From a virus, in IMG/VR virus record IMGVR_UViG_3300021364_000116, positions 1 to 30,309 of that record: a DNA stretch of 30,309 nt. One strand, written 5' to 3'. The notes under the pieces are model-generated. The model did not search any database, had not been told where the DNA came from, and saw only the letters and a list, made by a program, of their open reading frames with translations. Shown here one piece after another: positions 767-27,296 of this stretch; positions within the stretch are counted from its first letter, which is position 1, and every line of letters starts with the position of its first letter. Both the position numbers and the translations under genes were made by a program.

Positions 767-783
767 TAAGTTTTATTAAAAAT

Positions 784-816: not shown

Positions 817-838
817 TGTTACACTAAATTAAAGTTAT

Positions 839-1159: not shown

Positions 1160-1499
1160 TGCGGTTATAGTTAAACCGATTGAAAACGAAGAAACAACTT
1201 ACGGTAATATCATTGTACCTGATTTAGGTAATGAAAAAAATGAAATGGGTGAAGTTATTGCTGTTGGACCTGGAAAACCTACTATTACAGGTGAATTTAT
1301 AAGTACTATTCTTCAAGTAGGAGATAAAGTAGTATTACCTACTATGGGATTTACTAAATTACCTTATAATGGAGATGAATATTATGTAGGTCCTGAAAAC
1401 CAAATATTAGCTAAAATTACACCTACAGTAAGTGTAGAAGATGTATTAGCTGAAACAAAAGTAAGTGAAGAAGAAAAAGAAATGTTAACAGATATTTAA
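1137..1499 (+). CDS. groES: GroES-like co-chaperonin
   Basis: A 120 aa protein whose first 94 residues match the GroES fold: the opening strand FDAVIVKPIENEE, a mobile loop with the hydrophobic clip NIIVP (residues 24-28) that would bind GroEL, then MGEVIAVGPGK (37-47), VGDKVVLP (61-68) and a final strand ILAKI. GroES caps the GroEL ring and closes the folding chamber. Compared with the usual 95-97 aa there is an extra acidic tail of about 26 residues (SVEDVLAETK onward) that I cannot assign. T4 uses its own co-chaperonin gp31 for capsid folding, but this protein looks like true GroES rather than gp31. GroEL starts two bases after its stop. Confidence 0.92.
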   Translation: MALEALFDAVIVKPIENEETTYGNIIVPDLGNEKNEMGEVIAVGPGKPTITGEFISTILQVGDKVVLPTMGFTKLPYNGDEYYVGPENQILAKITPTVSVEDVLAETKVSEEEKEMLTDI

Positions 1500-1500
1500 T

Positions 1501-3123
1501 ATGAGTAAACAAGTTATTTTAGGTTCTGAAGCAAGAACCAATTTAGTAAAAGGAATTGATATACTAGCAGATGCAGTAGTATCAACGTTAGGTCCTAATG
1601 GTAGAAACGTAGTAATAGCTAATGAAATGGGAGCTCCACAATCCACAAAAGATGGGGTTACAGTAGCTAAATCCATTTCATTATCAGACCCAAATCAAGA
1701 ATTAGGAGTTCAATTAGTAAAACAAGCTGCAGTTAAAACAGCTGAAAAAGCAGGAGATGGTACTACTACTTCTACTTTATTAGCTAGAGAAATGATTAAA
1801 TCAGGATTAACAGCTTTAAATAATAATGAAAATGCAGTTCAAATTAAAAGAGATATTGATGCTACAGTTAACCAAGTAGTAGATAACCTCAGAACTCAAA
1901 TAGCAGAAGATATTTCAGGTGAAGAGCAATTAGAACAAGTTGCTACTATTTCAGCAAATAATGATCCTGAAACTGGTAAACTCATTGCTACTGCTATTGA
2001 GAAAGTTGGAATGGAAGGGGTTGTTCATATTGAAGAGTCAAAGACAGGAGAAACCTATTTAGAAACTGTTGAAGGGTTGCAGTTTGATAGAGGTTACAAG
2101 TCGCCTTATTTTGTTACAAATAATAATACAATGACTTCAGTATTGGATAATCCCTTTATTCTTATTGCAGATCAAAAAATAACACAAGTAAAAGATCTAT
2201 TACCTATTCTAGAAGGTGTTTCATCCCAAGCACGTTCACTTTTAATTATTGCTGAAGATATTGATAATGAAGCATTAGCAACTCTTATTGTTAATAAAAT
2301 GAGAGGTACAATGAAGGTATGTGCTGTTAAAGCACCTGACTTTGGGGAGAGAAGAAAATTAGTTTTAGAAGATATCGCCATTACAACTGGTGGTGTAGTA
2401 TTTGACAAACAAAAAGGAATGAAGCTAGACAAATTCAGTTGGGAATGGTTTGGTGAAGCAAGAACAGTAACTGTAGGAAAAGAACAAACAACAATAGTAG
2501 ATGGAAAAGGAGGAGTTGAATCAATTGAAGCACGTATTGAAGAATTACAACAACAAATCGACAAAGCAACAACACCGTTCGAAACGGAAAAACTCCAAGA
2601 AAGGTTGGCAAAATTTGTCGGAGGAGTAGCTATTATTCATGTAGGTGGAAATACTGAAACTGAAATGAAAGAGAAAAAAGATAGGGTTGATGATGCATTA
2701 CATGCAACTAAAGCTGCTATTGAAGAAGGTATAATACCAGGAGGTGGGACAGCTTTATTGTATGCCTCATCTGGTTTAGAAGCTAAAACAACAGGAGCTC
2801 AAATTGTAGTTGAAGCATGTGCTAAACCATTTAATCAAATTTTAGTAAATGCTGGATGGGATGAAGTTGATGGTAGAATCATGGCTGATAATTTAGTTAA
2901 TTCTGGTAATGATGCTTGGACTGGATTTAATATTAAAACTGCTAAAAAAGTTAATATGAAAGAAGCAGGTATTATTGATCCAACTAAAGTAGCAAGAACA
3001 GCATTACAAAATGCAGCATCAGTAGCTGGTACAGTATTACTAACAGAATGTACTGTAGTAAATGAACCTAAAGAAGAATCAAATCAACCTCAAATGGATC
3101 CATCAATGATGGGGATGATGTAA
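1501..3123 (+). CDS. groEL: GroEL-like chaperonin, full length
   Basis: At 540 aa this is close to the bacterial length of about 545. The order is equatorial, intermediate, apical, intermediate, equatorial. Visible signatures are GPNGRNVV and TKDGVTVAK with the ATP-site Asp (D52 in E. coli), AGDGTTTSTLLARE, the apical stretch GLQFDRGYKSPYFVTN, and DDALHATKAAIEEGIIPGGG with the second catalytic Asp (D398 in E. coli). The tail ends MDPSMMGMM, like the Gly-Met repeats of host GroEL. All parts needed for an ATP-driven double ring appear intact. Phages usually borrow host GroEL, so a complete GroEL beside a phage GroES is notable. The coding sequence is AT-rich like its neighbours, which argues against very recent transfer. 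Confidence 0.97.
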   Translation: MSKQVILGSEARTNLVKGIDILADAVVSTLGPNGRNVVIANEMGAPQSTKDGVTVAKSISLSDPNQELGVQLVKQAAVKTAEKAGDGTTTSTLLAREMIKSGLTALNNNENAVQIKRDIDATVNQVVDNLRTQIAEDISGEEQLEQVATISANNDPETGKLIATAIEKVGMEGVVHIEESKTGETYLETVEGLQFDRGYKSPYFVTNNNTMTSVLDNPFILIADQKITQVKDLLPILEGVSSQARSLLIIAEDIDNEALATLIVNKMRGTMKVCAVKAPDFGERRKLVLEDIAITTGGVVFDKQKGMKLDKFSWEWFGEARTVTVGKEQTTIVDGKGGVESIEARIEELQQQIDKATTPFETEKLQERLAKFVGGVAIIHVGGNTETEMKEKKDRVDDALHATKAAIEEGIIPGGGTALLYASSGLEAKTTGAQIVVEACAKPFNQILVNAGWDEVDGRIMADNLVNSGNDAWTGFNIKTAKKVNMKEAGIIDPTKVARTALQNAASVAGTVLLTECTVVNEPKEESNQPQMDPSMMGMM

Positions 3124-5639: not shown

Positions 5640-6608
5640 TTGGCTAGAAAAATACCTAGAATAGTTAGGGAGATTAAAAGTAATCCTCCCCAAGAGATAA
5701 ATTTTGCTTATCAGAAAAATGTCTCTTATTCGCAAATGTCTATATTTCGCGGTTGTCCACATCGTTGGAAACTGCAATATAAAGACAAGATAAAGGTATT
5801 TACATCATCAATTCATACTGTATTTGGAACTGCTATACATGAAGTATTACAACATTATTTAGATGTAATGTTTGATACTAGTGCTGCAAACGCAGATAGA
5901 ATTAACTTAGAAGAATTATTTCAAGAGAAATTTATAGGTGAATATCAAAACCAATATAAAAAAAATAATAACCAACATTTTTCATCTGCTGAAGAAATGA
6001 GAGAATTTTTTGAAGATGGAGTTGGTATTTTAAATTGGTTTAAAAAGAAGCGAGCTAGGTATTTTTCAAGAAGAGGATGGCATTTAGTTGGATGCGAAAT
6101 CCCAATTGTTATTTCACCAAATAAAATGTATACCAACATAAAATATACAGGATTCCTTGATGTTGTATTATATAATGAAAATACACAAACATTTAAGATA
6201 ATAGACATTAAGACAAGTACTAAAGGTTGGAATGCTAGAGATAAGAAAAATGAAGATAAACAATATCAGTTACTTTTGTATAAACAGTTTTTTAGTGAGC
6301 AATATGGTATTCCTATTAGTAATGTAGATATTGAATTTTTCATTGTTAAAAGAAAAGTTTTAGATTGGAATGATGACAACATTATGTCACCACACCAAGC
6401 ATATAGAGTACAAACATTCAGCCCACCTAGTGGGAAAATTAAATTAGGACGAGCTAAAAAAGCTATAAATAATTTTATTAATGAATGTTTTAATTCAAAT
6501 GGAGAAATTAAAGATATTGAATATCCCAAATCTGTTTCAAAGTGGAATTGTATGTTCTGTCCATTTAAAGAAGATAAAGAAACGTGTGGAGAAGGGATAA
6601 TTTTTTAA
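5640..6608 (+). CDS. PD-(D/E)XK nuclease, RecB/Cas4-like with cysteine cluster
   Basis: A 322 aa nuclease-like protein. The N-terminal YSQMSIFRGCPHRWKLQY and FGTAIHEVLQHYL with H67 match motif I of RecB/AddB/Cas4 nucleases. The active site follows as GFLDVVLY (D174) and IIDIKTS (D189-I-K191), then QYQLLLY (Q210, Y214). Cysteines C39, C304, C307 and C316 are placed like the four ligands of the iron-sulphur cluster in AddB and Cas4-type nucleases. It would cut or trim DNA ends, in phage recombination or host DNA degradation. The only usable start is TTG at 5640, three bases after the previous stop; no in-frame ATG precedes the conserved N-terminus. Confidence 0.87.
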   Translation: MARKIPRIVREIKSNPPQEINFAYQKNVSYSQMSIFRGCPHRWKLQYKDKIKVFTSSIHTVFGTAIHEVLQHYLDVMFDTSAANADRINLEELFQEKFIGEYQNQYKKNNNQHFSSAEEMREFFEDGVGILNWFKKKRARYFSRRGWHLVGCEIPIVISPNKMYTNIKYTGFLDVVLYNENTQTFKIIDIKTSTKGWNARDKKNEDKQYQLLLYKQFFSEQYGIPISNVDIEFFIVKRKVLDWNDDNIMSPHQAYRVQTFSPPSGKIKLGRAKKAINNFINECFNSNGEIKDIEYPKSVSKWNCMFCPFKEDKETCGEGIIF

Positions 6609-6854: not shown

Positions 6855-8294
6855 ATGAATAAAAGTTTTAAACACATACCTAAAGACCAAAGAAAAAAGA
6901 TATTATTAATCTGTGATGATATTAGAGTACATTCTGGAGTAGCAACTATTGCTAAAGAAATTGTAATACATACAGCACATCATTTTAATTGGGTCAATAT
7001 TGCTGGAGCTATTAAACATCCAGATCTAGGGAAAAAAATTGACATTAGTAAAAGTACTAATGAAGTTGCTGGTATAGATGATGCTAGTACCTTTTTATAC
7101 CCAGTTAATGGATATGGGGATCCATTTTTATTAAGAAATATAATAAATCTAGAGAAACCTGATGCCATTATGTTAATTACTGATCCAAGATATTTTACTT
7201 GGGTATTTAATATGGAAGCTGAGATTAGAAAGAAAATCCCTATTGCTTACTTAAATATTTGGGATGATTATCCTGCTCCAATGTATAATAAAGCATATTA
7301 TGAAGCATGTGATTTATTAATGGGTATATCAAAACAAACAGTAAATATTAATGATATAGTATTAGGAGATAAAGCTAAAGATAGATTACTTAGGTATGTT
7401 CCTCATGGTTTAAACCCAGACATTTATAAACCAATTTCAGATGAGGATGAAGAATTAAAAAAATTCAAGAAAGATTTCTTTAATAATGATATTCCTGAAT
7501 TTGTAGCATTCTTTAATTCTAGAAACATTAGACGTAAACAAATCCCAGATACAATGATGGCTTTTAGGGTGTTTTTAGATGGTTTAGACAAAGAAAAAGC
7601 AGGCAAATGTAAATTAGTTTTACACACAGAAGCTGTTACAGATGCTGGAACTGACTTATATAAAGTAGCTGAATACTTATTTGGAGAAAGTTATCCAAAT
7701 GCTATTAAGTTTTCACATAATAAATTATCCCAACAACAATTAAATTGGCTTTATAATATAGCTGATGTTCAAATTCTTATTACTTCAAATGAAGGTTGGG
7801 GGTTAACTATCACAGAAGCAATATTAGCTGGGACACCTATTATATCTAATGTAACAGGTGGAATGCAAGATCAAATGAGATTCATTGACGAGAATGGAGA
7901 GTGGTTTACACCAAGTTCAGAAGTACCTTCTAATCACAGAGGTACTTACAAAGAACATGGTGAATGGGCATTTCCAGTTTACCCGACTTCAAGATCAATA
8001 CAAGGTTCTCCCCCAACCCCCTATATCTATGATGATAGATGTGCTTGGGAAGATGTAACTGAAAGATTATTTGAAGTTTATAACTTAGATAGAAAAACAA
8101 GAAAAAAAGCAGGTCTTAAAGGTAGAGAATGGGCTATGTCTGATGAAGCTGGATTTACAGCTCAACATCAAGCAAATAGAGTAATGGAAGCTTTTAATAC
8201 TTTATTCGATACTTGGAAACCTAGAGAAAAGTATGAAATCGTTAATGCCACTAAACATAAAGGTAACTTTTTAACCCATAAAATTATATATTAA
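6855..8294 (+). CDS. Glycosyltransferase, GT4-like (GT-B fold)
   Basis: A 479 aa protein with two Rossmann-like halves. The N-terminal half opens KKILLICDDIRVHSGVATIA, a Gly-containing acceptor-side loop. The C-terminal half has YVPHGLNPDIYKP and the signature NEGWGLTITEAILAGTPII, followed by SNVTGG, which is the donor-binding E-x7-E region of GT4 enzymes. These transfer a sugar from a nucleotide-sugar with retention. An insertion after EWFTPSSEV is rich in Pro and aromatic residues. It starts the series of glycosyltransferases in this operon. The donor and acceptor cannot be read from the sequence. Confidence 0.9.
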   Translation: MNKSFKHIPKDQRKKILLICDDIRVHSGVATIAKEIVIHTAHHFNWVNIAGAIKHPDLGKKIDISKSTNEVAGIDDASTFLYPVNGYGDPFLLRNIINLEKPDAIMLITDPRYFTWVFNMEAEIRKKIPIAYLNIWDDYPAPMYNKAYYEACDLLMGISKQTVNINDIVLGDKAKDRLLRYVPHGLNPDIYKPISDEDEELKKFKKDFFNNDIPEFVAFFNSRNIRRKQIPDTMMAFRVFLDGLDKEKAGKCKLVLHTEAVTDAGTDLYKVAEYLFGESYPNAIKFSHNKLSQQQLNWLYNIADVQILITSNEGWGLTITEAILAGTPIISNVTGGMQDQMRFIDENGEWFTPSSEVPSNHRGTYKEHGEWAFPVYPTSRSIQGSPPTPYIYDDRCAWEDVTERLFEVYNLDRKTRKKAGLKGREWAMSDEAGFTAQHQANRVMEAFNTLFDTWKPREKYEIVNATKHKGNFLTHKIIY

Positions 8295-9593
8295 ATGAGC
8301 AAACCAGTTTTTGTAATTAGTTGTCCTTTTGACACTTACTCAGGTTATGGAGCTAGATCTAGAGATTTAGTTAAAGCTATAATCGAATTAGATAAATATA
8401 ATGTAAAACTTTTACCTCAAAGATGGGGAAGTACCTCATGGGGATTTTGTAAAGATCACCCTGAATGGGAATTTTTATATAATCATTCTATTCAACCAAA
8501 TCAAATAAAACAACAACCTGAAATTTGGATGCAAATTACAATTCCAAATGAATTCCAACCTCAAGGCAAATTTAATATAGGTTGTACAGCAGGAATTGAA
8601 GCTACAGCATGTAAACAAGAATGGATTGAGGGATTAAATAGAATGAATGTAAACTGGGTTTCATCCTCATTTGCTAAAGGTATGTTTGAAAGTGTTAAGT
8701 ATGAAGTAAAAAATAAAAACACTAATCAAGTTCAAAGAATACTTAAAGTAGAAAAACCTATTGAAGTAGTGTTTGAAGGGGCTAATTTAGACATTTATAA
8801 ATCTATACCTTCTCAAGATATTAAAACATTTGATTTTAAAGATATTCCTGAATCATTTTGTTATTTAAATGTAGGACATTGGATGCAAGGTCATTTTGGA
8901 CATGATAGAAAAAATTTAGGAGTTTTAGTTAAATCTTTTTATGAAACATTTAAAGGACCTTTAATTAAAAATAAACCTGCTTTAATATTGAAAGTATCTC
9001 AAGGAGTTGCTTCATATATGAGTAGAGAAGCAGTATTAGATAAAATTAATAGTATAAAAAGTACTATAAATTCAACTTCATTGCCTAACATTTATTTAAT
9101 AAATGGAGAGTTTACAGATTCAGAAATGAATGAATTATATAACCACCCAAAAGTTAAAGCTATGATTAGTTTAACCAAAGGGGAAGGATATGGCAGACCA
9201 TTACTTGAATTTAGTTTAACAGGCAAACCTGTAATAGTTTCAGGTTGGTCAGGACACTTAGATTTTATTAAACCAGATATGAGCACATTATTAAATGGAA
9301 CTTTAGAAAATGTACATCCATCAGCTGCTAATAATTGGTTAATTCCTGAAGCTCAATGGTTTAAAGTAGATGAATCTAGTGTAGGAAGACATTTAAAGGA
9401 TTGTTATAAAAAATATAAAATTTATAGTACAAATTCTAAGAAACAGAAAAATTATAGCAAAAAACAATTTAGTTATGGGGAAATGAAAAATAGAATTGAT
9501 AATGTACTAAGTGCTTATGTACCTGATTTTCCAACTCAAGTAGAATTAAAACTACCAGAGATTGAATTACCTAAATTACAAAAAGTAGAATAA
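8295..9593 (+). CDS. Glycosyltransferase, GT4-like
   Basis: A 432 aa GT-B type protein. The start FVISCPFDTYSGYGARSRDL has the glycine-rich acceptor loop, and the C-terminal donor site reads LTKGEGYGRPLLEFSLTGKP followed by VIVSGWSGHLDF, matching the GT4 E-x7-E region. VFEGANLDIYK (near residue 157) corresponds to the linker seen in related enzymes. It starts directly after the previous glycosyltransferase stop and shares its last A with the next ATG, so the genes are cotranslated. It is probably paired with the preceding enzyme in extending one glycan. Confidence 0.87.
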   Translation: MSKPVFVISCPFDTYSGYGARSRDLVKAIIELDKYNVKLLPQRWGSTSWGFCKDHPEWEFLYNHSIQPNQIKQQPEIWMQITIPNEFQPQGKFNIGCTAGIEATACKQEWIEGLNRMNVNWVSSSFAKGMFESVKYEVKNKNTNQVQRILKVEKPIEVVFEGANLDIYKSIPSQDIKTFDFKDIPESFCYLNVGHWMQGHFGHDRKNLGVLVKSFYETFKGPLIKNKPALILKVSQGVASYMSREAVLDKINSIKSTINSTSLPNIYLINGEFTDSEMNELYNHPKVKAMISLTKGEGYGRPLLEFSLTGKPVIVSGWSGHLDFIKPDMSTLLNGTLENVHPSAANNWLIPEAQWFKVDESSVGRHLKDCYKKYKIYSTNSKKQKNYSKKQFSYGEMKNRIDNVLSAYVPDFPTQVELKLPEIELPKLQKVE

Positions 9594-10033
9594 TGAATTT
9601 TGATGAATTAAAAGAATGTTCTAGATGTGGTTCTGATGCTTGTTATAGTCAAGAAGTCACTGATGAAATTAAAATAGAATTATGTTATGGTTGTGGGTTC
9701 CAGTCTAATAGTCTTATGACTAAGGGTTCCGAATTTTTTAATGAACAATGGGAATTACTCCCAGAGTTGTATAAAGTGTTAATGGATGAAGAAGAAGACA
9801 CAGGGAAAATTTGGATGCCAACAACTATTAATATAAAAGATAAGGGAATGGTATTTGCTGATGGTAAATCTAGAAGTAACTGGAAATGGGCTGGAGTAAA
9901 AGCAGTTCCTGTTAATGAAGAAGAAAAAGATAAATTTAAAGATGAAAAATTTAGAGCAGACATGACTACACTAAAACATTTTGAAGAACGTGATTTTATG
10001 GATGCTCTTTCTTATATTGATGTAATACCATGA
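9593..10033 (+). CDS. Zinc-ribbon protein of unknown function
   Basis: 146 aa with a four-cysteine ribbon at the start: C9-x2-C12 and C31-x2-C34 (CSRCG and CYGCG). The rest is acidic and contains WELLPELYKVLMDEEED and KHFEERDFMDALSYI. I cannot name the family. The ribbon probably binds zinc for structure or nucleic acid contact. It lies between glycosyltransferase genes and overlaps both neighbours by one to four bases, so it is expressed with them even if its role differs. Confidence 0.75.
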   Translation: MNFDELKECSRCGSDACYSQEVTDEIKIELCYGCGFQSNSLMTKGSEFFNEQWELLPELYKVLMDEEEDTGKIWMPTTINIKDKGMVFADGKSRSNWKWAGVKAVPVNEEEKDKFKDEKFRADMTTLKHFEERDFMDALSYIDVIP

Positions 10034-10470
10034 AAGGATTAGGTGATTTAGTAGCAAAAGTAATCTCAGTTGTTACTTTAGGCCAAGGAAAAAGAATAGC
10101 TACTTATGTAGCTAAGTTAAGAGGTAAAGAAGATTGTGGTTGTAATAAAAGACAAGATTATTTAAATGAAAAATTTAGTTTTAAACCTAAAGAAATGAAA
10201 TTAACAGTTTTAGATTGGACTGAATCCTGGCATTTAGTCAGACAACAAGTATCCTGTTCTTGCCAGTTTGATTATGGTTATTTGGAAGTTAAAGATAAGG
10301 ATCATAAATTTATTGCTGAAGCAAAATTTGATGCTCCACCTATGTTAAATGGTCAATTAAAAAAATTAGAAATTGGTATTAATCCTTTAATGGATCCTAG
10401 TTATTTTGAAATTAGATTTCATAAAAAAGAAGGTGGGTATACCTTACCTATAAAAGTTGAAATTAAATGA
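10030..10470 (+). CDS. Unknown protein with CGC motif and beta-rich C-terminus
   Basis: 146 aa. The N-terminal 50 residues have a mildly hydrophobic helix GDLVAKVISVVTLG and the element EDCGCNKRQDYLNEKF, a pattern I associate with small conserved phage proteins. The C-terminal 90 residues are predicted beta strands (MKLTVLDW, FEIRFHKKEGGY) and include a second Cys pair CSC. This may be a short conserved N-terminal module fused to a beta sandwich. No function can be assigned. Confidence 0.7.
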   Translation: MKGLGDLVAKVISVVTLGQGKRIATYVAKLRGKEDCGCNKRQDYLNEKFSFKPKEMKLTVLDWTESWHLVRQQVSCSCQFDYGYLEVKDKDHKFIAEAKFDAPPMLNGQLKKLEIGINPLMDPSYFEIRFHKKEGGYTLPIKVEIK

Positions 10471-11090
10471 AAATAAGTTATGCAATTACTGTTTGTAATG
10501 AAAAGTTAGAAGTTAAACGTTTAGTTGACTTTTTACTAGCTAACAAACGCCAACAAGATGAAATTGTTGTACTTTATGACCAAAAAAATGGTGATGAAGA
10601 AGTAATTAATATGCTTACTAAATTAAATAAATTACCTAATTTTCAAGTATGGAGAGGATTTTTTGAAAATCATTTTGCTGATTGGAAAAATAAATTAACT
10701 GAATACTGTGACGGTGACTACATTTTTCAGATTGATGCTGATGAAATGGTTACGGAAGTTTTACTTGGTTACTTACCTTCTATATTAGAAAGTAATCCTG
10801 ATAATGAAGTTTATTTAGTACCTAGAGTAAATACAGTATCAGGTTTAACTCAAGAACATATTACTAAATGGAGGTGGAATGTAGATGATGAAGAGAGAAT
10901 AAATTGGCCTGACTATCAATGGCGTATTTGGCAAAACAAACCAGAAATTAAATGGGTAAATAAAGTACATGAAAAGCTAGAGGGATTTAAAACTTATGCT
11001 CCCCTCCCAGCTCATACTGAATTAGCTTTACAACACCCTAAAACAATAGAAAGACAAGTCAAACAAAACAATTATTATAGTACATTATGA
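10467..11090 (+). CDS. Glycosyltransferase family 2-like (GT-A)
   Basis: A 207 aa GT-A protein. The start ISYAITVCNEKLEVKRLVDF is the usual nucleotide-binding strand of GT2, and DYIFQIDADEM (residues about 85-95) carries the DxD metal site. The segment RIWQNKPEIKWVNKVHEKL resembles the acceptor-side region of WaaE-type lipopolysaccharide glycosyltransferases. It is short, so it is a minimal catalytic domain. It probably adds one sugar in the glycan built by this operon. ATGA overlaps both sides. Confidence 0.85.
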   Translation: MKISYAITVCNEKLEVKRLVDFLLANKRQQDEIVVLYDQKNGDEEVINMLTKLNKLPNFQVWRGFFENHFADWKNKLTEYCDGDYIFQIDADEMVTEVLLGYLPSILESNPDNEVYLVPRVNTVSGLTQEHITKWRWNVDDEERINWPDYQWRIWQNKPEIKWVNKVHEKLEGFKTYAPLPAHTELALQHPKTIERQVKQNNYYSTL

Positions 11091-11305
11091 AAAAGAAAAT
11101 GATAGCATTGGCATTAGTTAGTATTTTAATCTTTAGCTGTGGAGCTAAAAAACCATCTTGGGAATATAAAAAAGCACCAGATAGTTTATTTGAAGTAGTA
11201 AACATAAAAGATAACCCAAAGGTAACTCAAAACGATAAAACAATATTGGGAATATTATTCTCAGGTATGGTTTTATTTGTTTTACACACATTTACAACAA
11301 GATAA
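11087..11305 (+). CDS. Small predicted lipoprotein with C-terminal membrane segment
   Basis: 72 aa. The first 18 residues are a basic start plus hydrophobic stretch ending in the lipobox IFSC, so Cys18 could be lipidated. The mature part is short and polar, then a hydrophobic segment ILGILFSGMVLFVLHTF forms a possible transmembrane helix near the end. A lipoprotein that also spans a membrane is reminiscent of spanin-like or superinfection-exclusion proteins, but nothing here proves either. It sits within the glycosyltransferase operon, overlapping by four bases. Confidence 0.72.
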   Translation: MKKKMIALALVSILIFSCGAKKPSWEYKKAPDSLFEVVNIKDNPKVTQNDKTILGILFSGMVLFVLHTFTTR

Positions 11306-11308
11306 ATT

Positions 11309-11449
11309 ATGATAAAAAATCAAGATAACGGCAACAACCAACTCAATCAAATTCGTAATGAATTTAACGGAAGAGTTGAATCAAAAAAATATATGGGAAA
11401 TGCCCCAAGAGTAAAGTTTAACAATAAAAGAAGATATAGAACAATATGA
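11309..11449 (+). CDS. Small basic protein, 46 aa
   Basis: A short frame from ATG at 11309 to TGA at 11447-11449, overlapping the next start by four bases. The protein is rich in Asn, Lys and Arg (QDNGNNQLNQIRNEF, then NNKRRYRTI at the end) and has no hydrophobic core. It fills the gap between two well supported genes and keeps the ATGA coupling, which is the main support for it being real. Confidence 0.6.
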   Translation: MIKNQDNGNNQLNQIRNEFNGRVESKKYMGNAPRVKFNNKRRYRTI

Positions 11450-12588
11450 AAAAAGTATGGTATGCTCCTTATAAGCATGAAGCTTATGGTCAAGAAGAAA
11501 TTGATGCTGTAGTTGAATCTCTGAAATCAGGTTGGTTAGGAGGACAAGGTCCTAAATCAGTTGAATTTGAAGAAAAAATTGCTAAAACATTTGGTAAAAA
11601 ATATGGTGTATTTGTTAATTCGGGTTCATCAGCATGTTTATTAGCTATTGCTGCTTTAGATTTACCTAAGGGGACAAAAATTATTACCCCTGCTTGTACA
11701 TTTGCTACTACGTTAGCTCCTATTATTCAATTAGGATATGTGCCTGTATTTGTAGATGTAGATTTAACTACATATTGTGCAAATATAGACCAAGTTATAG
11801 CTAAAGTAACAGATGATACATCAGCAATTATGCTCCCAAATTTAATTGGTAATAAACCAGATTGGCCCAAACTTAAAAAAGCATTAGTTGATATGGGTAG
11901 AGAAGATATTTACCTAATTGAAGATTCAGCTGATACTTTAACTCAAACACCTGAAACAGATGTTGCTACTACCAGTTTTTATGCTTCACACGTTATTACA
12001 GCTGGTGGAGTAGGTGGAATGGTAATGTATAATGATAAAAAGCATGTTACTAAATGTTTACAATATAGAGACTGGGGTAGATTAGGTGATGATTCTGAAA
12101 TTATGGATGATAGATTTAATCATATAGTAGATGGGATCCCTTATGACCATAAATTTTTATACTCAGTATTAGGTTACCATATGAAAGCTAGTGAAATGAA
12201 TGCTGCATTTGGTATTGTACAATTAGAAAGATTTGGTGTTAATAGTAAAATTAGAAGAGATAATATTGAACGTTATCTTAAAAATTTACAAGGTGTGGGT
12301 GATTTAGTTTTACCTGATGATAGTATTAAACCAAATTGGCTAGCTATGCCTTTACAAACAGAAAAAAGATTTGAATTACTTCACTTCTTAGAAGATAATA
12401 ATATACAAACTAGAGTTACATTTGCTGGGAACGTTACTAGACACCCTGTTTATAGAGAGTATTTAGATGATTTTGAAAACTCAGATACTATCATGAAAAA
12501 TGGTTTCTTACTAGGGGCGCACCATGGAATGACAGTTGAAGATGTAGATTATGTTTGTGATAAAATAAAAGAATTTTTTAATCAATAA
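11446..12588 (+). CDS. DegT/DnrJ-fold PLP enzyme with His in place of the catalytic Lys (3-dehydratase-like)
   Basis: 380 aa with the full DegT/EryC1/StrS layout: SGWLGGQGPKSVEFEE, GVFVNSGSSACLLA (phosphate-binding Ser), ATTLAPIIQLG, and VDVDLTTYCANID. PLP is contacted by the Asp in LIEDSADTL. Aminotransferases of this fold have Lys in the sequence S-F-x-x-x-K; here it is TSFYASHVITAGG with His182 (codon 11989-11991). ColD and the E1 3-dehydrase, which remove the C3 hydroxyl of 4-keto-6-deoxy sugars, use His at this spot. So I infer dehydratase-type chemistry rather than aminotransfer. An RmlB-like 4,6-dehydratase downstream could supply the substrate. Confidence 0.85.
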   Translation: MKKVWYAPYKHEAYGQEEIDAVVESLKSGWLGGQGPKSVEFEEKIAKTFGKKYGVFVNSGSSACLLAIAALDLPKGTKIITPACTFATTLAPIIQLGYVPVFVDVDLTTYCANIDQVIAKVTDDTSAIMLPNLIGNKPDWPKLKKALVDMGREDIYLIEDSADTLTQTPETDVATTSFYASHVITAGGVGGMVMYNDKKHVTKCLQYRDWGRLGDDSEIMDDRFNHIVDGIPYDHKFLYSVLGYHMKASEMNAAFGIVQLERFGVNSKIRRDNIERYLKNLQGVGDLVLPDDSIKPNWLAMPLQTEKRFELLHFLEDNNIQTRVTFAGNVTRHPVYREYLDDFENSDTIMKNGFLLGAHHGMTVEDVDYVCDKIKEFFNQ

Positions 12589-12589
12589 T

Positions 12590-13216
12590 ATGGAATTTAT
12601 AAATTACGATACCGAGAAATACAATTTTAGAAAAATAATTGAAGATATTTTAGAAACAGATAATCTAGAAAAAATTCATTTAAAACAAAGTTACGAATTA
12701 TTTGTTAAAGGTACTGATCAATCAACAGTATGGCATAGAAGATACTATGATAACTTAGATAAATTTTTACCTTTATATAATGAATTTATTAATGAAGTTG
12801 TAAAACCAACATTTGGTGAGGATGTAGTGTACCAAAAAATACCTACATTTAGAACTCAATTAGTAAATAATTTAGGTGTATTTGAATTTCATAGAGATAG
12901 AGATTATTCTCATAATGAAGAAGAAAGAAATTTCTTCTTACCATTTACAGATGCTTATTCAACAAATACAATTTGGGTTGAATCAGAAGAAGATAAAGCA
13001 GATTATTCACCAATGAATACTCTTTATGGTCAAGTAGTAAAATGGAATGGTAATAGCTTAATGCATGGAAATAAACAAAATAATACTCTTAATACTAGAG
13101 TAAGTGTTGATTTTAGATGTATTCCTTTATCAAAATATAGTGAAGAAGAAGGTGCAGCTGCTATATACTCTAAAATGAAATTTAAAGTTGGAGATTATTA
13201 CGAAGTAACAAAATGA
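12590..13216 (+). CDS. 2-oxoglutarate/Fe(II) oxygenase, StrG-like
   Basis: 208 aa. The facial triad reads H101-x-D103 in FEFHRDRDYSH and a distal H159 in LMHGN, with R170 in NTRVSVDFR placed to hold 2-oxoglutarate. Together with IPTFRTQLVNNLGVFEF and LPFTDAYSTNTIWVESEE this resembles StrG-type proteins from aminoglycoside and glycan clusters. Such enzymes hydroxylate or desaturate small molecules or sugars. Its place between a sugar PLP enzyme and a sugar reductase suggests a nucleotide-sugar or glycan substrate. It overlaps the following gene by four bases. Confidence 0.82.
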   Translation: MEFINYDTEKYNFRKIIEDILETDNLEKIHLKQSYELFVKGTDQSTVWHRRYYDNLDKFLPLYNEFINEVVKPTFGEDVVYQKIPTFRTQLVNNLGVFEFHRDRDYSHNEEERNFFLPFTDAYSTNTIWVESEEDKADYSPMNTLYGQVVKWNGNSLMHGNKQNNTLNTRVSVDFRCIPLSKYSEEEGAAAIYSKMKFKVGDYYEVTK

Positions 13217-13890
13217 AAATATTAGTACTTGGAGATGGATTATTAGGAAATGAAATTATAAAACAAACTAAATGGGATATAGCTTCAAGAAAATTAGGTA
13301 ATTTACCCGATCTAGATGATTACGGTGGGTTAGCTAATTTAATCTACAAGTATGACGTAGTAATAAATTGCATTGCTCATACAGATACTTATTCGACTGA
13401 GAAAAAACCTCACTATGATATAAATTTTAAATTTGTAGCTTTATTAAGTGATGTTTGTGAAGACGAAGATATAAAATTAGTTCATATATCTACTGAGTTT
13501 GTTTATGCTAATAATAAAGGATTGCCTACTGAAGAAGATATCCCCGCCCCAGGAAATACCTGGTATGGTCTTACAAAATTATTAGCTGATGAATACATTC
13601 AATTATGTAATAGTAATTATTTAATTTGTAGAGAACTACATAAACCAAACCCATTCCCATATTCAGAAGTATGGGATGTTTATACTTCAGGAGATACAGT
13701 AAATAAAATAGCGGGACTAATTATAAAACTAATTAATAAAAATGCTAGTGGGGTTTTTAATGTAGGAACAGGCAGTAAAAATTTAAAGGAGTTAGCTCCA
13801 TTTAGTAAAGGTATTCCTGCTCCCCCTCATGTTCCAAAAGATACTAGAATGAATCTGGATAAACTAAATGAATTTTTAGGATGCAAATAA
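13213..13890 (+). CDS. RmlD-like NAD(P)-dependent sugar reductase/epimerase, short form
   Basis: 225 aa extended SDR fold. MKILVLGDGLLGNEI gives the G-x2-G-x2-G nucleotide loop, followed by VVINCIAHTDTYSTE, then the catalytic HISTEFVY and YGLTK (Tyr and Lys). It resembles dTDP-4-dehydrorhamnose reductases but is about 60 residues shorter, lacking part of the C-terminal substrate region. It may reduce a 4-keto sugar produced by the RmlB-like enzyme. The TEFVY in place of the more usual TDYVF is a conservative change. Confidence 0.82.
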   Translation: MKILVLGDGLLGNEIIKQTKWDIASRKLGNLPDLDDYGGLANLIYKYDVVINCIAHTDTYSTEKKPHYDINFKFVALLSDVCEDEDIKLVHISTEFVYANNKGLPTEEDIPAPGNTWYGLTKLLADEYIQLCNSNYLICRELHKPNPFPYSEVWDVYTSGDTVNKIAGLIIKLINKNASGVFNVGTGSKNLKELAPFSKGIPAPPHVPKDTRMNLDKLNEFLGCK

Positions 13891-14681
13891 AAGATTTAGT
13901 AAATAAAAGTTGGTATGGTACTACAGGACACATTAAGTCTGAAGATGATTTAATCCTTGTAGAAAGATATATTAAATATAATCTTATATTTTTAAAAAAG
14001 TTTAAAGGTATAATTACATCTATTAATTGTGATCCTAAAGATATAGATTTAAAATGTAAAAATATTGAAATATGGGAAAAATATTTTGATAATGTGGTTC
14101 AATTAGAATGTCCTGCTAATAGAGGATATAATTTCGGGGTAGCGGATTTAGATAACCTAATTATTGATTATTGTAAAGAAAATAATATTGATTGGGTCTG
14201 TAAATCAGATAATGATATGATATTAGATTTATCCTTTTTAGAGAAAGAAATTGATGATTCTGATTTTTATTATATAAATGGTGTTGGATTTGGGGGCCTT
14301 CAAGCATATGATTTTGATATTGAAAAAGTAATGGTTGAAGATTTTTTTCCTCAAACAAATTTTTATTTTTTAAATACCTCTAAAGTAGATTTTTTAAATG
14401 ATAAAAAGTATTTAGATAAAACTTATAAACAAGTAAGTGAAATAGAAAATTATAATGGAAAAGTTTGGGAATATATTGAAGATTGGACTTGTGAAAGATT
14501 TTTAGCTAATTGTGTAGAACGAAATAATTTAAAAAAATTCCATCTCATTAGTAAACCTAAATATAAAAAATTACTAGAACACATCTTTAATAGTAGAGTG
14601 ATAGACTGTAGTTATAAAAACATAATGATAGAAGGAGTATGTCATTATCATTTTGAAAATCAAACAATAACTTTAATATGA
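13881..14681 (+). CDS. Probable glycosyltransferase, GT-A type
   Basis: 266 aa. The middle part ANRGYNFGVADLDNLI (about residues 74-89) then NIDWVCKSDNDMIL is a GT2-like arrangement, where the N-R-G-x-N region contacts the donor and SDNDM is a DxD-like metal site. The C-terminal region ends with HFENQTITLI and is Lys/Asn-rich. The usual N-terminal strand with T-x-N is replaced by FKGIITSINCDP, so this belongs to a diverged group. It overlaps the previous gene by ten bases. Confidence 0.7.
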   Translation: MQIKDLVNKSWYGTTGHIKSEDDLILVERYIKYNLIFLKKFKGIITSINCDPKDIDLKCKNIEIWEKYFDNVVQLECPANRGYNFGVADLDNLIIDYCKENNIDWVCKSDNDMILDLSFLEKEIDDSDFYYINGVGFGGLQAYDFDIEKVMVEDFFPQTNFYFLNTSKVDFLNDKKYLDKTYKQVSEIENYNGKVWEYIEDWTCERFLANCVERNNLKKFHLISKPKYKKLLEHIFNSRVIDCSYKNIMIEGVCHYHFENQTITLI

Positions 14682-15571
14682 GAAACATAGTTTTTTTAGT
14701 ACAAGATGATAATTGTGGGGCTACTTTTATGTTAGGTAAAATGGTAAAACATGCTCTAGATCAATTTAATATAAAATCTGAAATTATTCATATCAATAAT
14801 TGGGAATTGGATTTTAGTGCATTAGATACGTTAAAAGACAGTTTAGTATTTATATATAAACATGTACCTCATAAAATAGTATTACAAAAATTAAAAGAAA
14901 ATAATAATAAATTAGTAATGGATGTAGTAGACGAATATGTTCGTCCTGGTACTACTCCTGAAAATTTGTACAGTTATGAATTTTTTGATGGTATAATCCT
15001 TAGAATGAGCCGAGTATTAAAAGAATATACTTTACCATCTCATTTAGAAATAAAAACCATTCCCCATCATTGGGATGTTAGATTACAAAATTTAGATACT
15101 ACAAATAAACCAAACCCTAAACCAGTAGTTACAATTAATGATGGTAGAGATATGCCTCATTTACAAGATTTAATTAAATTTAAAGATATAGAATTTTTAG
15201 GTAATTTTAGTTATTCTCAATTTTCAGAATTAACTGATAAATTAAATAGTTATGCTATTCATTATAATGTAAGAAATACAGATAGTGCTGCTTATAAATT
15301 TAAACCTGCTACTAAACTAGTTACTGCTGCTGCTTTAGATACTCCTTTAATTACTAATTATGATTGGGCTATTCAAGATTTAATTCCAAAGGATTATCCA
15401 TTCTTAACTGAAGGTAAAGATTATGGGGGGATTGCTAATCTTATTAATACATTCCCGGGACGAGGTTCTAAAGAACATAATTATGCTTTAGAAATTTTAA
15501 AAGAAGTTAAAGTAAAGACTGCTTTAGTAAATTTAATTCCTGAGTATTTGGAATTTTATAAACGATTTTAA
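14678..15571 (+). CDS. Probable GT-B glycosyltransferase-like protein
   Basis: 297 aa. The C-terminal half contains SAAYKFKPATKLVTAAALDT followed by PLITNYDWAIQDLI, where the KPATKLVTAAA segment is typical of the donor site of GT4-like proteins that read K-P-x-x-K-x-x-E-A in other families. The N-terminal half has LVFIYKHVPHK and MDVVDEYVRPG, matching a Rossmann-like acceptor domain. The family Glu at the donor site is not evident, so activity is uncertain. Coupled by four-base overlap to its upstream neighbour. Confidence 0.65.
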   Translation: MRNIVFLVQDDNCGATFMLGKMVKHALDQFNIKSEIIHINNWELDFSALDTLKDSLVFIYKHVPHKIVLQKLKENNNKLVMDVVDEYVRPGTTPENLYSYEFFDGIILRMSRVLKEYTLPSHLEIKTIPHHWDVRLQNLDTTNKPNPKPVVTINDGRDMPHLQDLIKFKDIEFLGNFSYSQFSELTDKLNSYAIHYNVRNTDSAAYKFKPATKLVTAAALDTPLITNYDWAIQDLIPKDYPFLTEGKDYGGIANLINTFPGRGSKEHNYALEILKEVKVKTALVNLIPEYLEFYKRF

Positions 15572-15572
15572 T

Positions 15573-16751
15573 ATGGAAAAAATAACATTTTGTATACCAA
15601 GTAAAAACAATTTAAGATACCTTAAAACATGTATTCCATCTATTAGAAAGAATGCTTTTAAAGATGATCACGATATTATAGTATTTGTTGATTCAGATTA
15701 TGATGGTACTGTTGAATGGTTAAACGAAAATAAAGATAAATATAATCTTAAATTTGAGGTTAATCCTGATTTAAATAATTCTTTATATGGTATAGGTAAA
15801 GCATATGATAAATGTATTGAATTAGCTGAAACAGATATAGTAATGATTTTTCATGCTGATATGATGTTAGGTAAAAATGCTGATTTAAATGCTTTTAATT
15901 TATTAGAACCTAAAACTGTAGTATGTGCTACCAGAATTGAACCACCTTTACACCCAAATGGAGGTGAAAAAATAATTCAAGACTTTGGTATTTGGCCTGA
16001 GGATTTTAAAGAAGAATTATTTGATGAATTTGTAAGTGGTCAATTAGGAGAAGAAAAAGTAACTGAAGGTATATTTGCTCCTTGGATGATTTATAAAGAT
16101 GAATTTTTATCCATAGGTGGACATGACCCCATTCTAAAATCAGCTAGAGAAGATTCTGATGTATTTAATAGATTAAGTTTAGATGGTTTTAAATTTAAAC
16201 AACCTTGGAATAGTTTAGTTTATCATTTAACAGGTAGAGGAGGACAATTCCAACATGGTGAAGTAGAAGGGCCTAAAGATGAAGAATGGCAAAAGTTAAT
16301 GAATAATTCTACTAAAGAATTTATTAGAAAATGGGGATCAGGAGTTAAACATACTCCATTAATGTTACCTATTATTTCCCCTAAATATGATATTGGAATT
16401 ATATTAAAAAATGGTAATGAAACTTTAGTTAGAGCATTAGAACCATGGTCTGATACACTTTATGTTGATGAAGGTAACATTCCTACTTTAATTAAAAATT
16501 ACATTGATAGTGAACAACCTAATACGGCATTTGATTTATTTGATAGGTTAAAACCTTATGATAATGAAAAAAATAATGAAATTTTAGTTGAAGTAGATGG
16601 AGCTAATTTTAATCAACAAGATTTTAGAATTATAACTCAATTATCTGATATAATTAAAGATAGTGGTAGCGTTGGGAAATTTAAATTAGGAAATATAAAT
16701 GTAGAGATTATTCAAATGAATGAATATCAAAATAAATTAATTAAATTATGA
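15573..16751 (+). CDS. Glycosyltransferase family 2 with extra C-terminal domain
   Basis: 392 aa. The first 230 residues form a GT2 domain: ITFCIPSKNNLRYLKTCIPS, FVDSDYDGTVEWLNE, and IVMIFHADMMLG with a D-x-D-like HADMM. GIFAPWMIYKDEFLSIGGHD and AREDSDVFNRL match the acceptor part with the catalytic E-D. After about residue 265 there is a 125-residue tail (YDIGIILKNGNETLVRALEP onward) with alternating strands and helices that I cannot assign; it could be a binding domain. It belongs to the same operon and starts one base after the previous stop. Confidence 0.85.
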   Translation: MEKITFCIPSKNNLRYLKTCIPSIRKNAFKDDHDIIVFVDSDYDGTVEWLNENKDKYNLKFEVNPDLNNSLYGIGKAYDKCIELAETDIVMIFHADMMLGKNADLNAFNLLEPKTVVCATRIEPPLHPNGGEKIIQDFGIWPEDFKEELFDEFVSGQLGEEKVTEGIFAPWMIYKDEFLSIGGHDPILKSAREDSDVFNRLSLDGFKFKQPWNSLVYHLTGRGGQFQHGEVEGPKDEEWQKLMNNSTKEFIRKWGSGVKHTPLMLPIISPKYDIGIILKNGNETLVRALEPWSDTLYVDEGNIPTLIKNYIDSEQPNTAFDLFDRLKPYDNEKNNEILVEVDGANFNQQDFRIITQLSDIIKDSGSVGKFKLGNINVEIIQMNEYQNKLIKL

Positions 16752-17194
16752 AAAAGTTTAAATTAGGATTTACAGCAGGTAACTTTGATTTATTACATCC
16801 AGGTTACATTTATACATTTGAAGAGGCAAAACGTCATTGTGAAAAATTTATTGTATTTTTACAAAATGATCCCTCATTACATAGAAAATCAAAATATAAA
16901 CCCGTAATTCCATCTTGGGATAGATATAAAGCATTAATGTCTATTAAACATATTGATGAAGTATTTATGTATCAAACTGAAGATGAATTACTAGATTTAA
17001 TTAGATTTTGGAAACCAGATTTAAGAATATTAGGTGAAGATTATATTGGTAAACCATTTACAGGTGATGATTTACCTATTCATGTTATTTATACTTCTAG
17101 ATCCCATGGATGGTCAACAACTAAATTAAAAGATTTAATTGCTAGACAAACTATAAAACAAAATCCAAAAGTATTAGATGGAATTAAATCATAA
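16748..17194 (+). CDS. TagD-like cytidylyltransferase (HxGH family, HPGY variant)
   Basis: 148 aa. The start LGFTAGNFDLLHPGYIYTFE matches the nucleotidyltransferase signature, with H17-P-G-Y20 where H-x-G-H is usual. The second motif is RSHGWSTTKLKDLI, as in TagD and the heptose adenylyltransferases (R-T-x-G-I-S-T-T). These enzymes join CTP or ATP to a phosphorylated polyol or sugar. It may make a CDP- or other activated unit for the glycan operon. Tyr for the second His is a visible departure, which may alter catalysis or reflect a phage subgroup. Length is normal for the family. Confidence 0.8.
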   Translation: MKKFKLGFTAGNFDLLHPGYIYTFEEAKRHCEKFIVFLQNDPSLHRKSKYKPVIPSWDRYKALMSIKHIDEVFMYQTEDELLDLIRFWKPDLRILGEDYIGKPFTGDDLPIHVIYTSRSHGWSTTKLKDLIARQTIKQNPKVLDGIKS

Positions 17195-17624
17195 ATCATT
17201 TTTAGACTCAAGAGGCAGTACTACAGTATTTGATTTAGCTGAAAAAAATTATAAGCAAGTACTTGTATCATACAACCAACATATTCATACATTTAGGGGA
17301 TTTCATTATCAAGAAAAACTTCAAAATAAATATGTAAAAGTAGTTAGTGGTCAAATTTTAGATTTATTATATAATTTAAAAACAGGTGAATTAAAAAGTT
17401 ACATTTTAGGAGATGAAAATGCTCTTTATATTGGAGATGATTATGCTCATGGTTATTTAACTTTACAACCAAATACTACATTGGTATATTTAATGGATGA
17501 ACATTTTGATAAAGATAGTTATAAAACAATCCCATATCAAAACATCCCAGGAGCAAGCGATTTAATAAAAAGTAAATCAATGCAATTAGAGAATTTAACA
17601 ATTTCAGAAAACGACAAATTATGA
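17178..17624 (+). CDS. RmlC-like dTDP-sugar epimerase (cupin)
   Basis: 148 aa in a double-stranded beta-helix. FRGFHYQ (residues 39-45) carries the catalytic His (H43, equivalent to His62 of RmlC), and YAHGYLTL (89-96) is the second family signature. In place of the T-D-Y-Y-x-P stretch that holds the catalytic Tyr there is MDEHFDKDSY, so the acid residue is not obviously present. The protein is also about 30 residues shorter than RmlC. It may be a single-site epimerase or isomerase acting on the product of the RmlB-like enzyme. Overlaps the previous gene by 17 bases and the next by four. Confidence 0.78.
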   Translation: MELNHKSFLDSRGSTTVFDLAEKNYKQVLVSYNQHIHTFRGFHYQEKLQNKYVKVVSGQILDLLYNLKTGELKSYILGDENALYIGDDYAHGYLTLQPNTTLVYLMDEHFDKDSYKTIPYQNIPGASDLIKSKSMQLENLTISENDKL

Positions 17625-18505
17625 GAATTATAATTACAGGTGGAGCAGGATTTATAGGATCTTCATTTACAAATTATTGTGTAAAATTAGGCCATGATGT
17701 TTTAGTAGTAGACAAATTAACATATGCTGCTAACACAGATAATATTCCAAAAGTATCTATTTTACAAATGGATATTTGTGATGTAACATCTGAAGATTTA
17801 GGACCATATGATGTTTTAGTTAATTTTGCAGCTGAAAGTCATGTTGATAATTCAATTAAAGATGGAAAACCATTTGTTAGAACAAATGTAGAAGGCACTT
17901 TTAATTTATTAGAGGTAGCTAGACAAAACCCTAAATTAAAGAAATTTGTACAAATATCAACTGATGAAGTATATGGTGATATGAATGATTATGATACACA
18001 AGTATTAGCTGATGAATCCTTCCCATTAATAGGTTCTTCTTACTATTCAGCTACTAAAGCATCATCTGATTTATTAGTACAAGCTGCTGGGCGTACTTAT
18101 GGATTACCATACTTAATTACTCGTACTTGTAATAATTATGGTAGTTTACAACATAATGAAAAATTATTACCTACAATGATTAATTGTGTCAAATCTGATA
18201 TTCCAATTCCTATTTATGGTGATGGTTTAAATGTTAGAGAATGGATCCATGTTCATGATAATACTTCATTTATATGGGATTTAATTGAAAAAGACGCTTC
18301 AGGTATCCATAATATAAGTTCAGGTGAACGTTATACTAATTTAGATATTGTAGAAATAATAGAGAATACTCTAAATAAAAAAGTTAAAATTAAGTTTGTT
18401 GAAGATAGAAAGGGCCATGATAGAAGATATGGTATTGTTTCAAAACATTCAATTATTAGAAAGTATACTTTACCACAATACTTAGCAGAATGCTTGGAGG
18501 AGTAA
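17621..18505 (+). CDS. rmlB: RmlB-like nucleotide-sugar 4,6-dehydratase
   Basis: 294 aa extended SDR. The cofactor loop is TGGAGFIGSSF (6-16), AAESHVDNSI (70-79) is typical of dTDP-glucose 4,6-dehydratases, and the catalytic set appears in STDEVYG (T114, D115, E116) and YSATK (Y142, K146). TRTCNNYGSLQHNEKLLP and IYGDGLNVREWIHVHD complete the substrate region. It forms 4-keto-6-deoxy sugars, the entry to deoxyhexose pathways. It is about 40 residues shorter than the bacterial enzyme, mostly between motifs. No RmlA thymidylyltransferase is seen, so the substrate must come from the host. It is last in the glycan operon; its 3' end contains the -33 box of the next promoter. Confidence 0.9.
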   Translation: MRIIITGGAGFIGSSFTNYCVKLGHDVLVVDKLTYAANTDNIPKVSILQMDICDVTSEDLGPYDVLVNFAAESHVDNSIKDGKPFVRTNVEGTFNLLEVARQNPKLKKFVQISTDEVYGDMNDYDTQVLADESFPLIGSSYYSATKASSDLLVQAAGRTYGLPYLITRTCNNYGSLQHNEKLLPTMINCVKSDIPIPIYGDGLNVREWIHVHDNTSFIWDLIEKDASGIHNISSGERYTNLDIVEIIENTLNKKVKIKFVEDRKGHDRRYGIVSKHSIIRKYTLPQYLAECLEE

Positions 18506-18560: not shown

Positions 18561-18923
18561 ATGCTACAGACTCTAAAAAAATCAAATATGAATTTAAAAA
18601 TGATTCCCTGTTCATCTTGCGGTGAACCAATGCCAGAATTAAGATTTACTGAATATAAATACAGTTATTGTGTTAAATGTTCGGAAGCTGGATTAGGTGT
18701 TGGAAGAAAACAAGGTATACCTGTATTAATGGGTGAAGGCGACCATACATGGGTTGAAACAGTGATCATGGATGCTGACCAATATGAACAATATGTTGCT
18801 CAGGAAAAAGCAGAGAAAAAATTAGATAAAACGGATACAGCTGAAAAGTTAGACTTTGAAAAAGAAGATAAGAAAAATCTACAAGGTCCGTTTCAAATAG
18901 TTAATACCGAAGAAGATGCCTAA
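18561..18923 (+). CDS. Zinc-finger protein with DksA/TraR-like C4 motif
   Basis: 120 aa from the ATG at 18561, or shorter from 18588 or 18600. The N-terminal core IPCSSCGEPMPELRF and YSYCVKC places four cysteines (C17, C20, C37, C40) as in the DksA/TraR zinc finger, where C-x2-C-G-x-x-I-x-x-x-R is typical. It lacks the long DksA coiled coil before the finger, and instead has an acidic and Lys-rich tail (EKAEKKLDKTDTAEKLDFEK). A transcription-linked role is possible. Overlaps the next gene by eight bases. Confidence 0.72.
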   Translation: MLQTLKKSNMNLKMIPCSSCGEPMPELRFTEYKYSYCVKCSEAGLGVGRKQGIPVLMGEGDHTWVETVIMDADQYEQYVAQEKAEKKLDKTDTAEKLDFEKEDKKNLQGPFQIVNTEEDA

Positions 18924-19533
18924 ACCCAAACCACTATCTAAAGAAATGATAGTGGCGGCCCAAGCAAATACTAAATCAAATATGGCTGCCGCCAGATATC
19001 TTCATGTTTCTTATCAACATTATAAGAGATATGCTAAGATGTATAAGTTATTTGATTCCCACAAAAATCAAAGTGGAAAAGGTATACCTAAATTCTTAAA
19101 AGGTAAAGGAAAAGAACCTGCTCTTCTGGATATAATTGAAGGAAGAGTATCAGCTGCTCATTTTACTCCTGCTAAAATAAAGTATCGTTTAATAGAAGCT
19201 GGATATTTATCAGAGCAATGCTCAATGTGTGGTTTCCAAGAACGTAGGGTATTAGATTATAAAATGCCCTTATTGTTGCACTTTAAAGACAATAATAAAT
19301 CTAATTATAGCAAAGAAAATATAGAATTATTATGTTACAATCATTATTTCCTTACAGTAGGAGATATTTTTACAGATAAAGATGTTAAGCAAATCGAATC
19401 CCATCAGGAACATAATAGTACAACTGATAAAGTAGAATGGGAAGTAGATGATTACCATCTTCAACGTTTAAGAGAATTAGGATTAAGCGATGAAGAGGAA
19501 GATGATGTTAACCAATATATTTCTAGAATATGA
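18916..19533 (+). CDS. HNH-like protein with N-terminal helix-turn-helix
   Basis: 205 aa. Residues 20-40 (NMAAARYLHVSYQHYKRYAK) look like a helix-turn-helix. The C-terminal half has a zinc-bound HNH-like unit: CSMCGFQERRVLDYKMPLLL, HFKDNNKSNYSKENIELLCY and NHYF. The first pair is C-x2-C, the later pair seems reduced to a single Cys before NH, so the second zinc ligand set is unclear. This pattern is shared with HNH nuclease-like proteins of large phages. It may bind or cut DNA, or act in transcription. Confidence 0.68.
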   Translation: MPKPKPLSKEMIVAAQANTKSNMAAARYLHVSYQHYKRYAKMYKLFDSHKNQSGKGIPKFLKGKGKEPALLDIIEGRVSAAHFTPAKIKYRLIEAGYLSEQCSMCGFQERRVLDYKMPLLLHFKDNNKSNYSKENIELLCYNHYFLTVGDIFTDKDVKQIESHQEHNSTTDKVEWEVDDYHLQRLRELGLSDEEEDDVNQYISRI

Positions 19534-27294: not shown

Positions 27295-27296
27295 TT

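Follow-up and report, generated by a model that had tools for sequence, protein, structure and literature searches.

A phage glycan-assembly locus with a constant glycosyltransferase frame and a predicted 3,6-dideoxyhexose pathway in its exchangeable interior

The viral record IMGVR_UViG_3300021364_000116, analysed here over its whole length of 30,309 bases (the window), is a fragment of a larger phage genome. Between positions 6855 and 18505 it carries a run of glycosyltransferase (GT) and nucleotide-sugar genes, which a preliminary description had interpreted as a glycan operon. All open reading frames (ORFs) of the run were confirmed at their positions on the plus strand, and neighbours mostly abut or overlap by 1–17 bases, the only real gap measuring 140 bases (11306–11445). 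The genes listed earlier do exist, although three ORFs inside the run had been left out (9593–10033, 10030–10470 and 11087–11305). Judged by comparison with related phages, the run belongs to a phage glycan-assembly locus in which a constant frame surrounds an interior that is exchanged almost wholesale (Table 1).

Fifteen loci, including that of Flavobacterium phage immuto, were compared gene by gene. Thirteen of these span the region from GT4a to g18916, and two are cut at the distal end. The loci were gathered with GT4a as query and its presence in all 15 is by construction, which is not the case for the other frame genes. Out of 99 gene families, five are found in every locus (GT4a, GT4b, g9593, GT2a and g18561), and g18916 is found in 13, the remaining two (L074 and L090) being cut by contig ends. 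As many as 75 families occur in a single locus, and the span from flank to flank varies between 8.1 and 16.5 kb. Among the products of the interior are dehydratases and epimerases of nucleotide sugars, UDP-sugar dehydrogenases, DegT enzymes, methyltransferases and GT2-type GTs. On the distal side the variable cassette is bordered by g18916, whose identity reaches 96% even where the cassettes differ. Furthermore, L004, the closest relative that shares part of the cassette, shows identities from 72% to 100% in 250-base bins, a nucleotide mosaic that fits recombination.

Since about 80 loci share the gene order, and relatives of GT4a are encoded in 313 viral stretches, the gene run is not a product of chance. 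The preliminary description had regarded interruption of the operon in relatives as evidence against a specific phage-made glycan. Taken literally the operon is interrupted, its interior being replaced, but the framework GTs are retained. That they are kept despite this replacement strengthens the glycan reading rather than weakening it, and a specific glycan made by the phage is well supported.

Table 1. Genes of the glycan locus and its flanks, with positions in the window.
Gene or product	Position	Strand	Evidence and occurrence
PD-(D/E)XK nuclease gene	5640..6608	+	PF12705; constant upstream neighbour, same place in ~80 loci and immuto
GT4a, family 4 framework glycosyltransferase	6855..8294	+	PF00534 32.3 bits, over cut-off
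GT4b, framework glycosyltransferase	8295..9593	+	phrog_2170 glycosyltransferase E 2e-13; below Pfam cut-off; 15/15 loci
g9593, framework protein with CxxC pairs, 146 aa	9593..10033	+	Without family match; 15/15 loci, between GT4b and GT2a
g10030, accessory	10030..10470	+	4/15 loci
GT2a, family 2 framework glycosyltransferase	10467..11090	+	PF00535 over cut-off; 15/15 loci; homologues in Mel-JY01, RM378
Small lipoprotein-like ORF, outside shared locus	11087..11305	+	Lipobox-like N-terminus; without match in L004, L005
DegT-family protein, predicted nucleoside diphosphate (NDP)-4-keto-6-deoxyhexose 3-dehydratase, E1/ColD type, without Fe-S cysteines	11446..12588	+	Best PDB 3bcx/3bb8 E 1e-58; SFYASH
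Putative 2-oxoglutarate (2OG)-Fe(II) oxygenase	12590..13216	+	TIGR04324 35 bits, below cut-off; HRD...H pattern in sequence
RmlD-like reductase, short	13213..13890	+	PF04321 over cut-off; TIGR01214 below cut-off
GT-A fold protein, probable glycosyltransferase	13881..14681	+	Without family match; AlphaFold2 pLDDT 71; GT-A enzymes matched by VIA-align, best Z 12.6
Orphan protein	14678..15571	+	GT call unsupported
GT2b glycosyltransferase	15573..16751	+	PF00535 over cut-off; 6/15 loci including immuto; often last or near-last cassette GT
TagD/HldE-C-like nucleotidyltransferase, candidate sugar-1-phosphate activator	16748..17194	+	PF01467; phrog_7878 E 5e-31; TIGR02199 67 bits, below cut-off
RmlC-like epimerase	17178..17624	+	PF00908 62 bits, over cut-off
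RmlB-like NDP-hexose 4,6-dehydratase, C-terminally short	17621..18505	+	TIGR01181 297 bits (cut-off 365); STDE, YSATK motifs
g18561, constant distal flank	18561..18923	+	15/15 loci
g18916, HNH/homing-endonuclease-like, constant distal flank	18916..19533	+	phrog_14736 HNH; PADLOC HEase

Six GTs had been proposed for the run. Four are supported by sequence (GT4a, GT4b, GT2a and GT2b) and a fifth, gene 13881, by its predicted GT-A fold, whereas no support was found for gene 14678. The AlphaFold2 model of the 13881 product was built from five sequences and its structural matches also include nucleotidyltransferases; going by this model the protein is likely a glycosyltransferase. No match to the 14678 product was found in Pfam, PHROGs or PDB. 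A search with it found two records, both near copies of the window, so the structure model had no alignment to draw on and is useless (pLDDT 40). The calls of RmlD-like, TagD/HldE-like, RmlC-like and RmlB-like genes stand in family searches. A StrG-like oxygenase had also been called; this call is based on a family match below the cut-off and a pattern in the sequence.

The E-x7-E motif of GT4a is kept as EGWGLTITE in 13 close relatives and reads EGFGIASLE in Rhodothermus phage RM378. The best PDB match of the GT4a profile is the chlorovirus GT B736L. A role of GT4a as a defence gene was considered and rejected, the match to the GT4-conflict family PF20706 being weak and PADLOC being silent for the GTs. 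Within GT2a, positions 10680–10929 hold a cluster of differences (94% identity) relative to two contigs (L003 and L081) that are elsewhere 99–100% identical, reflecting either local gene conversion or an assembly artefact. A promoter scan of the window returned fewer sites than its shuffles (75 vs 89), and no terminator-like sites were found at the operon borders. The transcription units can therefore not be set. A search of the window against Rfam gave no matches.

The window is a fragment of a phage related to immuto, and its source is a large marine phage, probably of flavobacteria. Immuto, a 160-kb phage of Baltic Flavobacterium carrying T4-like gp20 and gp23 genes, encodes the closest isolate relatives of both GT4a (56% identity) and GT2b (45%). 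Its genome reads, from 40 to 62 kb, GroES-GroEL, PD-(D/E)XK nuclease, GT4a, GT4b, a hypothetical gene, GT2a, variable genes, GT2b, and genes like g18561 and g18916. This syntenic backbone is present in the window, while the clamp loader gene of the window is unmatched in the immuto stretch examined. Genes for Hsp20, a GroES-like protein and GroEL lie close together at 344–3123 of the window and are conserved in the lineage. Relatives of GT4a are found in hundreds of viral contigs. Microcystis phage Mel-JY01 shares the order GT4a-GT4b-GT2a-GT2b, and RM378 encodes homologues of GT4a and GT2a, a GT4b homologue being unsupported there (11 bits). A near-identity search of the operon among isolate phages gave no match.

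Gene 11446 had been described as encoding a pyridoxal phosphate enzyme. It does belong to the DegT family, but its product is probably not an aminotransferase. The PDB matches are headed by E1, the CDP-6-deoxy-hexulose 3-dehydrase (E 1e-58), followed by ColD, before all aminotransferases. The histidine of the SFYASH motif aligns to H220 of E1, at the site of the aminotransferase lysine, the same position that was mutated to lysine in 3bb8. Histidine in place of lysine separates the 3-dehydratases E1, ColD and SpnQ from aminotransferases (PMC8987622). All close viral relatives that extend over the site keep the motif SFYASHVITAGG unchanged, and two cellular relatives also possess the histidine; the DegT proteins of immuto and of L042 keep the lysine. 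We predict that the product is probably a His-type, pyridoxamine phosphate (PMP)-dependent sugar 3-dehydratase.

E1 and SpnQ contain an Fe-S cluster, which ColD lacks (PMC8987622). The four-cysteine [2Fe-2S] loop of E1, RDWGRDCYCAPGCDNTC, aligns to RDWGRLGDDSEIMDD in the 11446 protein, where the cysteines of the CxC loop are missing and the E1/SpnQ motif is not found. The protein looks E1-like in sequence and ColD-like in its expected chemistry. Its nearest cellular homologues are encoded by metagenome-assembled genomes (MAGs) of an archaeon (71% identity) and a member of the Bacteroidetes (61%). These homologues adjoin RmlD-like and RmlB-like genes (L097) or a fused RmlC-RmlD gene (L098). The former, at L097 6001–7149 in a Pacearchaeota MAG, is part of a polysaccharide cluster with a flippase-like gene, which suggests that the Fe-S-free E1-like enzyme has been widely transferred.

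A His-type 3-dehydratase, together with the RmlB, RmlC and RmlD neighbours of its cellular relatives, argues for one pathway to an NDP-3,6-dideoxyhexose. The RmlB, DegT, RmlC and RmlD homologues are most likely the parts of this predicted pathway rather than of a rhamnose pathway. The RmlB-like enzyme would convert NDP-glucose to a 4-keto-6-deoxy sugar, from which the PMP-dependent 3-dehydratase would remove the 3-hydroxyl, and epimerisation by the RmlC-like and reduction by the RmlD-like enzyme would then yield the NDP-3,6-dideoxyhexose. A second route may exist in the related locus L087, whose GDP-colitose-like set consists of genes for a GDP-mannose 4,6-dehydratase, a homologue of ColD (E 2e-58) and a protein resembling GDP-fucose synthase.

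The lack of RmlA, noted earlier for the operon, extends to the lineage. PF00483 is absent from the window's own record, itself a fragment, and was found in none of 29 related records, including the complete genomes of immuto, Mel-JY01 and RM378, while all 14 control genomes were positive. Supply of activated glucose by the host is a simple answer. Alternatively, the TagD/HldE-C-like protein may act as the hexose-1-phosphate activator; its gene is located directly before RmlC-RmlB in the window, L073 and L074, and in four Synechococcus phages a TagD homologue adjoins one of RmlB.

The framework GTs may build a core to which outer GTs would attach the 3,6-dideoxyhexose, with all assembly steps taking place in the cytoplasm. 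Neither polyprenyl-phosphate transferases (PF02397) nor flippases (PF01943) were found in 27 records, the controls being positive (GtrA was not searched). No multi-pass membrane proteins were found either, simple hydropathy giving one hydrophobic segment or none for each cassette protein. Assembly is probably cytosolic because none of these components was found, and with no machinery seen for export through the membrane, an acceptor in the cytosol is somewhat favoured. The framework GTs are, furthermore, common to phages of Flavobacterium, Microcystis and partly Rhodothermus, the envelopes of which differ, and this favours an acceptor borne by the phage. Chloroviruses glycosylate their own capsid (PMC4691112), and the likeness of GT4a to B736L is suggestive only. 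The acceptor would most likely be a virion protein, the cassette setting a variable sugar coat of the particle. We tentatively favour, somewhat short of an even chance, the reading that a cassette-swapped locus makes a 3,6-dideoxyhexose in the cytosol and that the resulting glycan decorates the phage's own virion.

Some points weigh against this proposal. The similarity to B736L may reflect the general GT4 fold, and both the glycan and its virion acceptor are deduced from gene sequences throughout the lineage. Moreover, GTs of the lipopolysaccharide (LPS) core also act in the cytoplasm and need no flippase, and the membrane argument therefore leaves room for the host envelope as acceptor. This is the main rival, a possible explanation to which we give about one chance in three: in infected cells the glycan would modify the LPS, at its core or outer chain, so that receptors are masked and competing phages kept out. 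Hypervariable GT islands of pelagimyophages and cyanomyophages have been read as modifying the host O-chain (PMC7029224), and homologues of KdsA and KdsB, enzymes for the LPS sugar 3-deoxy-D-manno-octulosonic acid (Kdo), are encoded in the window. The missing lipid-carrier transferase and flippase, and the sharing of the framework GTs across hosts with different envelopes, speak against it, as would a strictly lytic lifestyle, which would leave little time for remodelling a dying cell to pay off.

The KdsB/KdsA pair (27836–29175) bears on the virion or the host-envelope reading either way. It lies in a second sugar cluster at 26950–29552, with cupin, 2OG-Fe(II) oxygenase, KdsB-like, KdsA-like and MGS-domain genes, and is also found in the viral contig L100, next to an FkbM methyltransferase and a weak match to GT10.

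As for the sugar itself, the Rml-like genes might make ordinary dTDP-L-rhamnose with a host RmlA, the DegT gene being unrelated. RmlB, RmlC and RmlD homologues are indeed all present, the RmlB-like protein fits the dTDP-glucose model best (297 bits to TIGR01181 vs 55 bits to the CDP-glucose model), and DegT-RmlD and TagD-RmlC-RmlB form separate modules in relatives. We nevertheless regard rhamnose as unlikely, given the conserved His-type 3-dehydratase, whose cellular relatives adjoin RmlD/RmlB or RmlC-RmlD genes. All three Rml-like proteins also score below their equivalog cut-offs (297 against 365 bits for RmlB, 46 against 156 for RmlC and 55 against 224 for RmlD). These low scores count against the dideoxyhexose proposal as well.

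Phage GTs commonly glycosylate DNA bases against restriction, as in T4 or in the 5-hydroxymethylcytosine-dependent clusters of Pyle and colleagues (cited in PMC12619734), and this would suit a locus near replication genes (clamp loader, PD-(D/E)XK nuclease), but DNA is quite unlikely as the glycan acceptor: the cytosine methylase PF00145 is absent in related records except Mel-JY01, the thymidylate synthase homologue of immuto falls into the thymidylate synthase family, the annotation of immuto shows a 7-deazaguanine pathway with DpdA instead, and five GTs with a dedicated deoxysugar pathway seem, in our judgement, more than base modification needs. A search with PF12851 (Tet_JBP) was silent in related records and controls alike and is therefore uninformative. 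The 7-deazaguanine DNA-modification genes annotated in immuto are FolE, QueD, QueE, QueC, QueF and DpdA (L094 18607–36000 and L083 1–1016).

If the virion carries the glycan, this widespread lineage of marine phages would have a modular, exchangeable sugar coat that would matter for adsorption, for host defence and for the decay of particles, and the cultured relative immuto makes this testable. A more far-reaching and rather doubtful version is that a virion core glycan is capped with cassette-specified sugars, and that cassettes are swapped by recombination at the conserved flanks, possibly driven by g18916. The locus would then be a counterpart of serotype loci, providing antigenic-style coat variation. 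Even without a virion glycan, it shows clearly that phages carry and shuffle deoxysugar pathways, two distinct routes of the 3,6-dideoxyhexose type among them, and it offers an example of an E1-like dehydratase that is likely free of Fe-S. A large lineage of aquatic phages with core GTs has been described (PMC12619734). In open-access papers searched with a few terms, we found no account of this locus or of a phage-encoded 3,6-dideoxyhexose pathway.

Among known systems, the islands of pelagimyophages and cyanomyophages (PMC7029224) are similar in that large T4-like marine phages hold, within a conserved backbone, an island with many GTs and deoxysugar enzymes. Theirs are located in the structural region with tail fibres, whereas the present island lies between the PD-(D/E)XK nuclease and the HNH-like gene, near replication genes, and has three invariant framework GTs. 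The immuto locus (NC_055915, 49–62 kb) has the framework genes in the same order (45–71% identity across the GT frame) and the same distal flank genes, but its interior contains a Lys-type DegT aminotransferase, an acetyltransferase-like gene and others. Bacterial O-antigen and capsule loci also combine constant flanks with a variable, sugar-specific interior and 3,6-dideoxyhexose genes; unlike these, no flippase or initiating lipid transferase was found here. Autonomous glycosylation in chloroviruses (PMC4691112) likewise relies on virus-encoded nucleotide-sugar enzymes and GTs, with B736L as the link to GT4a. The acceptor there is the major capsid protein, as shown experimentally, whereas the present system is known from its genes. 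The E1/ColD pathways to 3,6-dideoxyhexoses (PMC8987622) share the set of 4,6-dehydratase, His-type 3-dehydratase, epimerase and reductase. The present enzyme differs in being E1-like overall without the Fe-S cysteines, the RmlB homologue is of the dTDP type, and none of the operon's genes was recognised as encoding an E3-like reductase. What sets the locus apart from known islands is a GT frame that stays fixed between defined flanks while the interior turns over almost completely, together with a soluble-only make-up and 3,6-dideoxyhexose-type routes.

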